DNA of 54,410 nt. Source: Burkholderiaceae bacterium. GTDB lineage: Bacteria > Pseudomonadota > Gammaproteobacteria > Burkholderiales > Burkholderiaceae_C. Location of the stretch: positions 1 to 54,410 of the forward strand of contig JABWBN010000004.1 of assembly GCA_013360485.1 (NCBI GenBank), read 5' to 3'. This document shows, piece by piece, positions 49,588 through 54,410 of the stretch (within the stretch, counting starts at the first letter, position 1; each line of letters starts with the position of its first letter). The notes under the pieces are model-generated. The model saw only the letters and a program-made list of their open reading frames with translations, was not told the origin of the DNA and did not search any database. The position numbers were made by a program, and so were the translations under genes.

Positions 49588-51213
49588 TCAGGTTCGGACC
49601 ACCAGGCCGCCAGGGGATCGGCCGGTGCGGCGCACACCGGCCAGGTGGGTGATGGGCTGACAGTAGCGACGCTGCAGCGCTGCGGCCTCGGCCAGAAGCG
49701 CGTCCTGGCCTTCGATGGCGCCGGCATGGCGACGCGCGACAAGGCCGGCCATCTCGATGAGCTTGGCATTGCGCGTGTCGGTGCCCTGGCGCAGCAGCTC
49801 GGCGACCGCCACTCCGGGGCGTCCTCGCACCGAGTGGGCCATGGCCTCCTCGGCGATGGCGGTGATGGTGGCGTGGCAGCCGCGTATCACCGAGGCCACC
49901 GGTTCGCGCCGCTGGGCCGATGCGACCAGGACTTCGGTCACGGCCTTCGAGACGCAGAAGCGCATCGCGATGGCGCGCGCCAGGTTCTCCATCTCGTCGG
50001 GCTCGACCGCATCCGAGGGCAGTCGCGTCCACAGCGCCAGCAGGATGTTTGATGCCTCGACGTCGAAGCCGTCGTCGTCGACACCTGCGGCCAGGCTTCG
50101 CGCCAGGGCCACGGCTTCATCACTCTTGCGCGCCAGCAACAGCCGCAGCGCGCTGGACGCGACTTCCATGCGCTGCAGGCGGCGGGAGTCGGGGTGCCGC
50201 TCCAAGAACTTGCGGATCAAGTCGCAGGCCACCCCGAGCGCCTTGGTGTCGGCCGTGTCATGGCGCAGAAGTGCCAGCAACATCAGCGTCAGCGCATCGA
50301 ACAGCTTGGACTTCAGCCCCATGGCGACCACGCGGTCCAGCATGCGGATCGCTTCGTCGCGCTCGCCTTCGTAGAACGCCAGCGTGCCGCAATGCTGCAG
50401 GCGCAGCATGCACCCGGGCGTGAGCTGCGCGGCCGTGCGGTAGGTCATCAGAGCGTTCGAGAATTCACCCTGGTCCACCTGCAGCCGCCCGAGGACGTCG
50501 TAGCCGTCGGCATGCTCGGGGCTGTCGCGCAGCAGCGCTTCCACGGTTCGCCGCGCGGGTGTCACTTCCCCGGCTGCGAACTGCGCCCGACCAACTCCCA
50601 GGCGCGCCCAGGGAATGTTCTTCTCATTGGCCACCGTTTCGTAAATCTGCCGGGCCTCGGCCTGCCGGTCCAACTTCAGCAGCAACTCGGAAGCCAGGCG
50701 GGCACAAAAGAGCCAGTACGACTCCCGCGCGTGGTAGCGGCGCAGGCAGAGCTTGGCTGCCTCGGCGTGGCGACCTTGTTCCAGGGCCTCGAAGATGTCG
50801 CACAGCACACGCTTGCGGCGCCGCGCCTCGATCAAGCGCTCACCGAGTGCTTGGGCGGTGTAGGGCTTGAGCAGGTAGCTGTCCAGCGCGGCCTCGGCCG
50901 CCTCGACCACCTTCGAGTAGGTGGCTTCGCCCGTGACCATGATGAAAACGGTGGAGTAGGGCAGCAGGTTCTCGCGACGCAACTCGTCGAGCAGGTCCTG
51001 GCCCGACATGTCGGTGCCCTCGAAGTGGTAGTCGCACAGGACGATGTCGTAGGGCCGCTGCTCGAGGGCGAGCCGCGCTTCGGTCACCCGGCTGGTCTGC
51101 TTGACGTGGCCGACGCCAAGGTCGCGCAACTGAGCCGCCATCACGCTGCGCGATGTCGGATTGCCGTCGATCACCAGGGCGTGGGCGCGATCGATGTCGC
51201 GGTCGATCATCAT
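49588..51213 (-). CDS. Response regulator with receiver domain and TPR region
   Basis: The 541-residue protein has an N-terminal receiver domain (about 10-135) with the phosphoacceptor Asp in DIVLCDYHFEG, the Thr switch in FIMVTGEA and the conserved Lys in SYLLKPYT. The rest is a helical region with TPR-like repeats (for example ESYWLFCARLASELLLKLDR and ALMTYRTAAQLTPGCMLRLQ) and no DNA-binding or enzymatic output domain. It should therefore act through protein contacts. Start at ATG 51213, the first of two adjacent ATGs after a G-rich ribosome-binding site. No histidine kinase gene is nearby. The target is unknown. Confidence 0.85.
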   Translation of the reverse strand: MMIDRDIDRAHALVIDGNPTSRSVMAAQLRDLGVGHVKQTSRVTEARLALEQRPYDIVLCDYHFEGTDMSGQDLLDELRRENLLPYSTVFIMVTGEATYSKVVEAAEAALDSYLLKPYTAQALGERLIEARRRKRVLCDIFEALEQGRHAEAAKLCLRRYHARESYWLFCARLASELLLKLDRQAEARQIYETVANEKNIPWARLGVGRAQFAAGEVTPARRTVEALLRDSPEHADGYDVLGRLQVDQGEFSNALMTYRTAAQLTPGCMLRLQHCGTLAFYEGERDEAIRMLDRVVAMGLKSKLFDALTLMLLALLRHDTADTKALGVACDLIRKFLERHPDSRRLQRMEVASSALRLLLARKSDEAVALARSLAAGVDDDGFDVEASNILLALWTRLPSDAVEPDEMENLARAIAMRFCVSKAVTEVLVASAQRREPVASVIRGCHATITAIAEEAMAHSVRGRPGVAVAELLRQGTDTRNAKLIEMAGLVARRHAGAIEGQDALLAEAAALQRRYCQPITHLAGVRRTGRSPGGLVVRT

Positions 51214-51366
51214 GCCCGGCCCCCCTCGGTCGGGAAGGCGGGTCGGCGGCGACACGGCGGGTTGGCACTGGGCATGGCAGATGGCGTGACAGGGGCTCCT
51301 TCCGCCATATCGGCCATTCCCGGCGCCGCCTTGAGCCGTGCAGCCGGAACGGTTGTGACAGGCCGT

Positions 51367-52518
51367 CTACTTGAACAGGTCCTTCACCCGGTCGGTCCAG
51401 CTCTTGGCATTGGGCGAGTGCTTGTCGCCGCCCTTGCGCAGAGACTCGTCGAGCTCGCGCAGAAGCTTGCGCTGGTGCTCGGTGAGCTTGACGGGTGTTT
51501 CGACCGCCACATGGCAGTACAGATCGCCCGGGTAGCTGGATCGCAGTCCCTTGATGCCCTTGCCGCGCAGGCGGAAGGTCTTGCCGTGTTGCGTGCCTTC
51601 GGGCAGTTCGATCTCGGCCTTGCCGCTGAGGGTGGGAACTTCGATGGCACCGCCAAGCGCGGCTGTGATCAGTGAAACCGGCACTGTGCAGTGCAGGTCG
51701 TCGCTGTCGCGCTCGAAGATATCGTGTTCCTTGATGCGGATCTCGATGAAGAGGTCGCCCGGCGGCCCTCCGTTGGTTCCTGGCTCGCCGTTGCCCGTGG
51801 AGCGGATGCGCATCCCCTCGTTGATGCCGGCGGGTATCTTGACCTCGAGCGTCTTCTGCCGCTTGATTCGACCGGCACCGTTGCAGCTGGTGCACGGCTC
51901 GGGAATGATCTTGCCGCTGCCATGGCAGTGTGGGCAGGTTTGCTGGATGCTGAAGAAGCCCTGCCGCATGTGCACCGTGCCGCTGCCGTTGCAGGCCGTG
52001 CAGGTCTTGGCGCTGGTGCCGGGCTTGGCGCCGCTGCCGTGGCAGGCGTCACAGGTATCCCAGCTGGGAATGCGGATCTGGGCATCCTTGCCCAGAGCGG
52101 CTTCCTCCAGGGTGATTTCCATCGCGTAGGACAGATCGGCCCCGCGGTACACCTGCGAGCCGCCACCGCCGCCGCGACGACCTCCGTTGAAGATGTCGCC
52201 GAAGATGTCACCGAAGGCCTCGGCGAAGCCGCCGAAACCCTCGGCACCGGCGCCGCCGCGGAATCCAGCGCCCATCCCGCTGTTGGGGTCGACGCCCGCG
52301 TGGCCATACTGGTCGTAGGCTGCGCGCTTCTGCGTATCGGAGAGCATCTCGTAGGCCTCCTTGGCCTCCTTGAACTTCTCCTCGGCCTTCTTGGCGTCGT
52401 CACCCTGGTTGCGGTCAGGGTGGTGCTTCATGGCCAGCTTGCGGTAGGCCTTCTTGATGTCGTCGTCGGTCGCGTTGCGGGGCACGCCCAGGACGTCGTA
52501 GTAGTCGCGCTTGGCCAT
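51367..52518 (-). CDS. dnaJ: Chaperone protein DnaJ
   Basis: DnaJ hands unfolded proteins to DnaK and stimulates its ATPase. The 383-residue type I DnaJ has the J-domain with HPD ([10 protein letters not shown], about 30-40), a Gly/Phe-rich linker, four zinc-finger repeats ([32 protein letters not shown]) and the C-terminal substrate-binding domain. It is complete, but its normal upstream partner dnaK is represented only by a short tail at 52626. Confidence 0.98.
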
Positions 52519-52625
52519 CGATCACTCGAAAGGGTAGGAATCGATTCGCCGCGCCGGGCCGCGGGCAGCGCCCGCCGGCTCGAGCGCGGCGCGTCTTCAG
52601 CTCGGGCCGCTAGGCCCGGCCCAGG

Positions 52626-53354
52626 TCACTTCTTGACTTCCTTGAACTCGGCATCCACGACGTTGTCGTCGGCCGGGCGCTTGGCTTCGCCTTGCGGCGC
52701 GGCTTCGGTCGGCGTGCCCGCCGGCTTCCAGCGCAGCGCGGCATTCGGCACCTTGACCACGCTCTCTCGGCTGTCGGTGATGATGCGCGCCGTCGCCGTC
52801 ATGCCGGGAAGCAGCTTGCGCTGCGCATTGTCGGCCGTGATCACGACGACATAGGTGACGACGTTCTGGACCGTCTGCGGCGCCAGGCGGATCTGCTTGA
52901 CCTCGCCGCGGAACTCCGGCGGCACGACGACGACCGAGTCGTCGGCGGTCTTGACGATCAGCTTCTTCACCGACGGGTTCTTCACGAGATCGGGCAGCAA
53001 GCCCTTCTCGGTCGACGTCAGCACGATGCCGTCGGCGCGGCGCTCGAGGCGCAGCATGCCGAACTTGCGGATGTTCTCGCGGACGTCGCGCTCGACGTTC
53101 GGCGGCACCGGATAGCGCGCGTGCGCGCGCAGGAACTCGAGGATCGCATCGGCCGTCAGGCCGGCCGCCGCGGCGTTCCAGATCGACAGCGGCGTGATCC
53201 GGTAGGTGTGGAAGAACTCGGGGGACTTCTCGAGCTCCGCGAACAGCGACAGGAAGTCCCGGCACTCGGTGAACCCGGGTGACGCGACCTCGAGCAGCAC
53301 CGTGCGATCCCCCTGGACCGTCAGCGATCGGACGTCCGGACTCTGGGCGTTCAT
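52626..53354 (-). CDS. Chimeric ORF: XPB-helicase N-domain / MacA-type adaptor fragment / DnaK C-terminal tail
   Basis: The 242-residue frame is a patchwork of three unrelated families. Residues 1-~150 match the N-terminal domain of bacterial XPB-type DNA helicases (TVLLEV, FAELEKSPEFFHTYRITPLS, IWNAAAAG, YPVPPNVERDVRENIRKFG). Residues ~150-215 match the beta-barrel/membrane-proximal part of MacA/HlyD efflux adaptors (TVQNVVTYVVVITADN, LLPGMTATARI, KVPNAALRWKP). The last ~20 (PADDNVVDAEFKEVKK) are the C-terminus of a betaproteobacterial DnaK. No helicase motor, adaptor hairpin, or DnaK ATPase is present. Its ATG overlaps the uvrA stop (ATGA). It is most likely an assembly or rearrangement product and unlikely to work as a protein. 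Confidence 0.8.
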   Translation of the reverse strand: MNAQSPDVRSLTVQGDRTVLLEVASPGFTECRDFLSLFAELEKSPEFFHTYRITPLSIWNAAAAGLTADAILEFLRAHARYPVPPNVERDVRENIRKFGMLRLERRADGIVLTSTEKGLLPDLVKNPSVKKLIVKTADDSVVVVPPEFRGEVKQIRLAPQTVQNVVTYVVVITADNAQRKLLPGMTATARIITDSRESVVKVPNAALRWKPAGTPTEAAPQGEAKRPADDNVVDAEFKEVKK

Positions 53355-54410
53355 GCGATCGACTCCCCGGCCTTGCGAGCGCGCTTCAGGTCCCGCTTGA
53401 GGAAGCGGCCGGTTTCGGACGTCGCGCAGCTCGCGACGACCTCGGGCGAGCCTTGCACCAACACGCGTCCTCCTTCTTCGCCGCCACCCGGGCCGAGGTC
53501 GACGATCCAGTCGGCGCACCGGATCATCTCCGGGTTGTGCTCGATGACGACGACGGTGTTGCCGGCGTCGACCAGGCGGTCGAGCACTTCGAGCAAGCGC
53601 GCGGTGTCGTCGACGTGCAGTCCGGTCGTCGGTTCGTCGAGCAGGTACAGCGTCGAGCCCTGTTCGGCCTTGCCGAGTTCGGCGGCGAGCTTCACGCGCT
53701 GCGCTTCGCCGCCCGACAATTGCGTCGCCGGCTGACCGAGCCGGAGGTAGCCGAGCCCGACGTCGTGCAGCAGTTGCATCGTGCGCTGGATCGCACGGTG
53801 GTTCTGGAAGAAGTCGAGCGCGGCGTCGACCTCGAGGTCGAGCACCTCGGCGATCGACTTGCCGCCGTAGGTCACGGCCAGCGTCTCGCGGTCGAAGCGC
53901 TTGCCGTCGCAGACTTCGCACGGCACGTAGACGTCCGACAGGAAGTGCATCTCGATCTGGACGAAGCCCTTGCCCTCGCACGCCGCGCAACGACCGCCGG
54001 CCTGGTTGAACGAGAACCGCTTCGCGGTGAAGCCCTTCATCCGCGCCTCGGGCGTCGACGCGAAGATCGCGCGGATGCGGTCGAACACGCCGGTGTACGT
54101 CGCCGGGTTCGACGCCGGCGTCGGACCGAGCGGACTCTGGTCGACGACGATCATCTCGTGGATCGACTTCGGCAGCGTCAGGCGCGTGAACGGCTCGCCG
54201 CCGCGAACCTCGCCGGCCAGTCGCGAGCGCAGCGCCGGCTCGAGCACGTCCATGACCAGCGTCGACTTGCCGGAGCCGGACACGCCGGTGACCACCGTCA
54301 GGCCGCCGATCGGCAAGCTGACGTCGACGCCTTTCAAGTTGTGCAGGCGCGCGCCGACGACTTCGATCGCACCGCGATCGTTCGCGCGCCGTCGTTGCGG
54401 TAATGCGATG
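53351..54410 (-). CDS. uvrA: Excinuclease ABC subunit UvrA, C-terminal part (5' partial)
   Basis: UvrA is the damage sensor of bacterial nucleotide excision repair. The frame is open to the right edge and gives about 353 residues of the second ATPase half: Walker A GVSGSGKSTL, the SPLGPTPASNPATYTGVFD segment, a zinc finger (CAAC...CEVC), the ABC signature QLSGGEAQRVKLAAELGK and Walker B YLLDEPTTGLH. The stop overlaps the XPB-like start by 4 nt, suggesting an operon in the source genome. It is upstream of the chimeric junction, so it need not come from the same organism as the rest of the window. Confidence 0.93.
   Translation of the reverse strand, partial: IALPQRRRANDRGAIEVVGARLHNLKGVDVSLPIGGLTVVTGVSGSGKSTLVMDVLEPALRSRLAGEVRGGEPFTRLTLPKSIHEMIVVDQSPLGPTPASNPATYTGVFDRIRAIFASTPEARMKGFTAKRFSFNQAGGRCAACEGKGFVQIEMHFLSDVYVPCEVCDGKRFDRETLAVTYGGKSIAEVLDLEVDAALDFFQNHRAIQRTMQLLHDVGLGYLRLGQPATQLSGGEAQRVKLAAELGKAEQGSTLYLLDEPTTGLHVDDTARLLEVLDRLVDAGNTVVVIEHNPEMIRCADWIVDLGPGGGEEGGRVLVQGSPEVVASCATSETGRFLKRDLKRARKAGESIA

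Follow-up and report, generated by a model that had tools for sequence, protein, structure and literature searches.

An in-frame DnaK-adaptor-XPB chimera at the end of a Burkholderiaceae contig, almost certainly a metagenomic mis-join

Chimeric contigs can arise in short-read metagenome assembly when shared k-mers or sequencing errors connect different genomes, as a review describes (PMC7299287). The contig end presented here likewise mixes the sequence of several genomes in one contig, and it differs from the interspecies chimeric contigs treated in that review (PMC7299287) in that apparently three sources follow one another within ~0.3 kb and a single reading frame is kept across them. The window (the whole stretch of 54,410 nucleotides that was analyzed) is the entire contig C266 of a Burkholderiaceae metagenome-assembled genome (MAG) of 4.32 Mb in 378 contigs, 84.69% complete. 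An ORF check of the window finds, at 52626-53354 on the minus strand, a single open frame of 242 aa with an ATG start, located where dnaK is expected beside dnaJ.

Each of three described families accounts for part of this frame (Table 1). It resembles the bacterial DNA repair helicase XPB (NF045503) in its N-terminal region but is without the helicase core, which lies on a separate Planctomycetota contig (L040); it shares at least the last 16 residues of DnaK (HSP70) with 6 of 10 congener tails but is without the HSP70 domain; and it holds one piece of an RND/MacA periplasmic adaptor (TIGR01730, PRK11578), the remainder of which is missing.

Table 1. Features at the right end of the window
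Feature	Coordinates	Strand	Basis and remarks
dnaJ, complete, native	51367..52518	-	Pfam DnaJ, DnaJ_C, DnaJ_CXXCXGXG; identity to congener G016
3' end of dnaK	52626..52676	-	Left part of chimeric frame; at least the last ~17 codons plus stop; boundary possibly up to ~52710
RND/MacA-type periplasmic adaptor gene piece	52677..52892	-	RND_mfp match; left edge +/- ~30 bases
XPB-type helicase, N-terminal 154 codons, Planctomycetota, cut by join	52893..53354	-	Identity to L040; Helicase_C_3, NCBIfam XPB
uvrA, C-terminal 352 codons, Planctomycetota, open at contig end	53351..54409	-	NCBIfam UvrA

Three families in one frame

The original prediction, that a DnaK tail, a MacA-type adaptor, and an XPB N-domain are joined in one frame, is borne out by profile searches together with the congener tails, and aligning the 242-residue product to these families, as had been proposed, recovers all three. 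The XPB portion matches Pfam Helicase_C_3 at residues 11-135 (E 2.9e-34) and NCBIfam repair_heli_XPB (NF045503) at residues 11-155 (E 1.9e-41; model positions 2-148 of 548), the latter at 142.2 bits against a cut-off of 610 bits that includes the helicase core. The middle of the frame matches RND_mfp (TIGR01730; E 2.1e-8, 33.5 bits against a curated cut-off of 94.9), with model positions 201-266 of 322 covered by 56-68 residues of the frame, and MacA (PRK11578; E 0.005, 16 bits against a curated cut-off of 342); on its own, the adaptor piece has no match in Pfam. The HSP70 domain (PF00012) is absent from the three Pfam families listed for the frame, and the DnaK portion is recognized instead by its last 16 residues, PADDNVVDAEFKEVKK; of the 10 congener loci with a DnaK tail, 6 have exactly these residues and 4 have changes. 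Among PDB sequences, the frame has matches to XPB chains (best E 2.1e-8) and, up to E 1, to no adaptor or DnaK chain.

The prediction had placed the adaptor fragment near 52680-52715 and the XPB domain near 52895-52920; these positions lie close to the joins and do not describe the extents of the pieces. The XPB join falls at 52892/52893. At the other join, identity to G016 ends at 52676 and the weaker matches of other congeners (G004, G010, G011, and G017; 80-84%) reach 52690-52700, so the dnaK/adaptor boundary is placed at about 52676-52710, and the residues in between, EAAPQGEAKR, have no clear likeness to the G016 tail or to any MacA relative. The alignments would thus fix this boundary to about 30 bases, and the DnaK tail in the frame comprises about 17 to 27 codons.

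Where the flanking sequences continue

The body of dnaK lies elsewhere in the same MAG. Own-genome HSP70 matches occur on contigs C8, C2, C100, and C268, the strongest of them on the minus strand of C8 from base 78, and on that strand the dnaK frame reaches the first bases of the contig still open. (The contig start truncates this dnaK, L008 1-1889, and annotation would call it partial.) The congener G016 matches the window at 50465-52676 with 96.5% identity, the match ending at G016 position 2212, and matches the first 3,775 bases of C8 with 92.7% identity, the match starting at G016 position 2220. On these coordinates C266 and C8 would adjoin as neighbors with ~7 bases between them, an adjacency read from the order in this one relative. 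More broadly, 30 relatives were searched and 11 congener loci examined; 10 of these loci have dnaK directly upstream of dnaJ, and in the eleventh, L061, the sequence stops 5 bases past dnaJ.

An arrangement of this kind could in principle be a real rearrangement, in which a Planctomycetota uvrA-XPB segment had been transferred beside a broken dnaK to give a true XPB-N/adaptor/DnaK-tail fused gene in a living cell, and the fact that all pieces share a strand and an open frame would fit such an event. Against this stands the location of the remaining dnaK, at the matching end of C8 and in the congener's order, as does the behavior of the XPB part, which has base-for-base identity with a contig from a different, Planctomycetota MAG and loses it precisely at the join.

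That contig (L040; JAEUIB010000074.1, contig k141_166007 of Planctomycetota MAG-32) emerged from a protein scan of genome contigs with XPB-N; of the 31 loci recovered, 19 have Planctomycetota, Planctomycetes, or Phycisphaera in their titles. Bases 1-124 of L040 are identical to the window from 53016 down to 52893, after which the two diverge and L040 runs through the remainder of XPB as far as the stop codon. Of the 30 other loci, 25 match XPB-N and then, within 4 bases, the L040 continuation; in the remaining loci, the XPB-N match stops short in four and there is no continuation match in one (L034). Searching the genome of L040 with window positions 52501-54410 returned the 124-base match and nine matches of 34-52 bases, and nothing else. 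Among the window's own genome and its relatives (40 genomes in total), the XPB model found some match in 39 and none above the cut-off; among the matches listed, all but this piece begin at model position 166 or later, and the piece is the sole match to the XPB N-terminal region.

Composition gives the same answer for the whole of 52893-54410. A third-order model contrasting 81.8 kb of the window's genome with 26.8 kb of the genome of L040 was applied to stretches of equal length, with each native stretch left out of its own model when scored and with locus L050, which overlaps L045, omitted (the run that includes it is unchanged in result). The segment scores -0.0420 per base, within 0.001 of the mean of 14 Planctomycetota stretches (-0.0429; highest, -0.0184), and none of 34 native stretches is as low (mean, 0.0570; lowest, 0.0288); the expectation that composition differs to the left and right of ~52.7 kb was therefore correct. 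The segment, which comprises XPB-N and half of uvrA, is Planctomycetota DNA.

Within this segment, the uvrA part matches the NCBIfam UvrA model at E 9.9e-153 (model positions 601-942 of 943); the native uvrA of the window's MAG is on contig C373. The uvrA stop shares 4 bases with the XPB start (53351-53354; minus-strand ATGA), an overlap suggestive of translational coupling between the two genes in the Planctomycetota source. Immediately upstream of XPB, uvrA is found in 7 of the 31 loci (L012-L017 and L028), and a uvrA match of any kind in 9 of the 31; several of the 31 loci include little upstream DNA. The closest loci, L012-L014, share 67-69% aa identity with the window in UvrA and 68-74% in XPB-N. 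The UvrA DNA-binding domain has no match in the genome of L040 (G001), and controls were positive in 13 of 14 genomes; uvrA is therefore missing from that Planctomycetota bin, as if it had gone elsewhere.

A separate observation concerns UvrA itself: in L014 and in the Planctomycetota loci L013, L015-L017, and L028, the C-terminal part of UvrA matches twice, ~2.9 kb apart in one open frame. This frame is 1,922 codons from stop to stop in L016, 1,995-1,999 codons and open at the locus edge in L015, L017, and L028, and 1,157-1,425 codons and open in L013 and L014. Judged from these frames, the six loci look like they carry a double-length UvrA directly upstream of XPB, and NCBIfam includes a long UvrA model (PRK00635) of 1,809 positions.

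The adaptor piece and the retained frame

Both sides of the chimera thus continue naturally elsewhere, dnaK on C8 and XPB on L040. For the adaptor piece between the joins, no continuation was found in the window's genome or in samples of 398, 399, and 397 genomes. Its closest relative among 18 loci is L067 (61% aa). At the protein level, its sole other match in the window's genome is on C237 (43% aa). The 398 genomes of the phylum (own included) gave 46 matching genomes, the best other match having 74% DNA identity, and the 399 genomes of the family (own included) gave 153, the best long match having 75% identity; the family sample also yielded 83% over 83 bases, with higher identities solely over shorter stretches. 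A further 397 genomes were drawn from the family of G327, chosen because its MacA-like ORF (L067) is nearest at the protein level; here 156 match, and the best 5 of the 156 are at 71-77%. None of these searches returned a donor, and since all three are samples from larger groups, the sampling may just have missed it.

By composition, the adaptor piece (52677-52892) is not Planctomycetota-like: it scores 0.0235, a value as low as which is reached by 12 of 81 native stretches of the same size and as high as which is reached by none of 61 Planctomycetota stretches. Because this value is within the native range and a donor was not found, the piece may be native DNA that is absent from the 84.69% complete bin. 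The caution that everything right of ~52.7 kb is of uncertain origin accordingly resolves into two parts: 52893-54410 is foreign, on both L040 identity and composition, and the adaptor piece, with its native-range composition, may be native.

At the XPB/MacA join, XPB of L040 reads PPEFRGEVKQALIRIG and the MacA relative L067 reads TFRGRVKQIRLGSQNVQNVV at the corresponding place, such that F-R-G-x-V-K-Q is encoded on both sides. The residues GEVKQ had been singled out as common to XPB and MacA, and at the protein level they are. The accompanying suggestion, that the join falls on a short shared stretch, is demonstrated on the XPB side; on the MacA side it rests on a relative, and we infer that the real adaptor donor carried the FRGEVKQ word as well.

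A join on such a word keeps the frame by itself. When unrelated genes of the window's genome were compared with those of the Planctomycetota loci, 43 of 54 exact 15-base words were in frame, as were 1,269 of 1,688 words of 12 bases; these counts leave out the 40 of 1,148 gene pairs that match at E <= 1 (with homologous pairs left in, the 15-base count is inflated to 323 of 334), come from genes picked by GC at codon positions rather than by annotation, and score overlapping words of one match separately. With 43 of 54 shared words in frame, the keeping of frame across the joins is unsurprising, and the argument that chance would rarely give two clean in-frame joins does not hold. This also removes force from the case for a genuine cellular gene fusion, since the frame is kept as expected for word-matched joins; together with the positions of dnaK and XPB described above, we regard a real rearrangement as extremely improbable.

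Origin of the contig end

The contig end is almost certainly a mis-join that arose while the metagenome was sequenced or assembled, judging from the sequence comparisons presented here, and the suspicion of an assembly artifact is upheld by the dnaK body on C8 and the Planctomycetota DNA at 52893-54410. In outline, the contig of the MAG, proteobacterial by its gene content, would have broken off within the 3' end of dnaK; assembly would next have taken up ~0.2 kb of an adaptor gene and would then have passed into the uvrA-XPB gene pair of a Planctomycetota organism. The joins would lie on short words common to both sequences, the MacA/XPB join on the FRGEVKQ codons, and both organisms would presumably have been present in one sample.

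How the path was made is a further matter. Neighboring contigs of a k=141 graph are expected to overlap by 141 bases. No 15-base word occurs both in C8 and in the part of the window beyond 50 kb, and a search of the own genome for a contig overlap at the window's left end, which would reveal the assembler's word size, matched only the window itself. At odds with the simplest k=141 graph are thus the overlap with L040, which is 124 bases long, and the absence of any overlap with C8. In one sub-case of the mis-join, chimeric molecules would have existed in the sequencing library, although in no cell: template switching at short shared words would have made the fragments, and the assembler would have reproduced them faithfully. 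Template switching and a k-mer join account equally well for the word shared at the XPB/MacA join, but two switches within ~0.2 kb, abundant enough for assembly, would be unusual, and we consider this route unlikely.

By whichever route the mis-join arose, the chimeric frame is not a gene, and there is no protein product to explain. Everything between ~52.7 kb and the end of the contig should be left out of the MAG's genome, and neither cross-phylum gene transfer nor gene fusion should be claimed from it. In GC-rich genomes, moreover, a reading frame left intact by a join only weakly supports a real gene, because short words common to unrelated coding genes mostly lie in the same frame.
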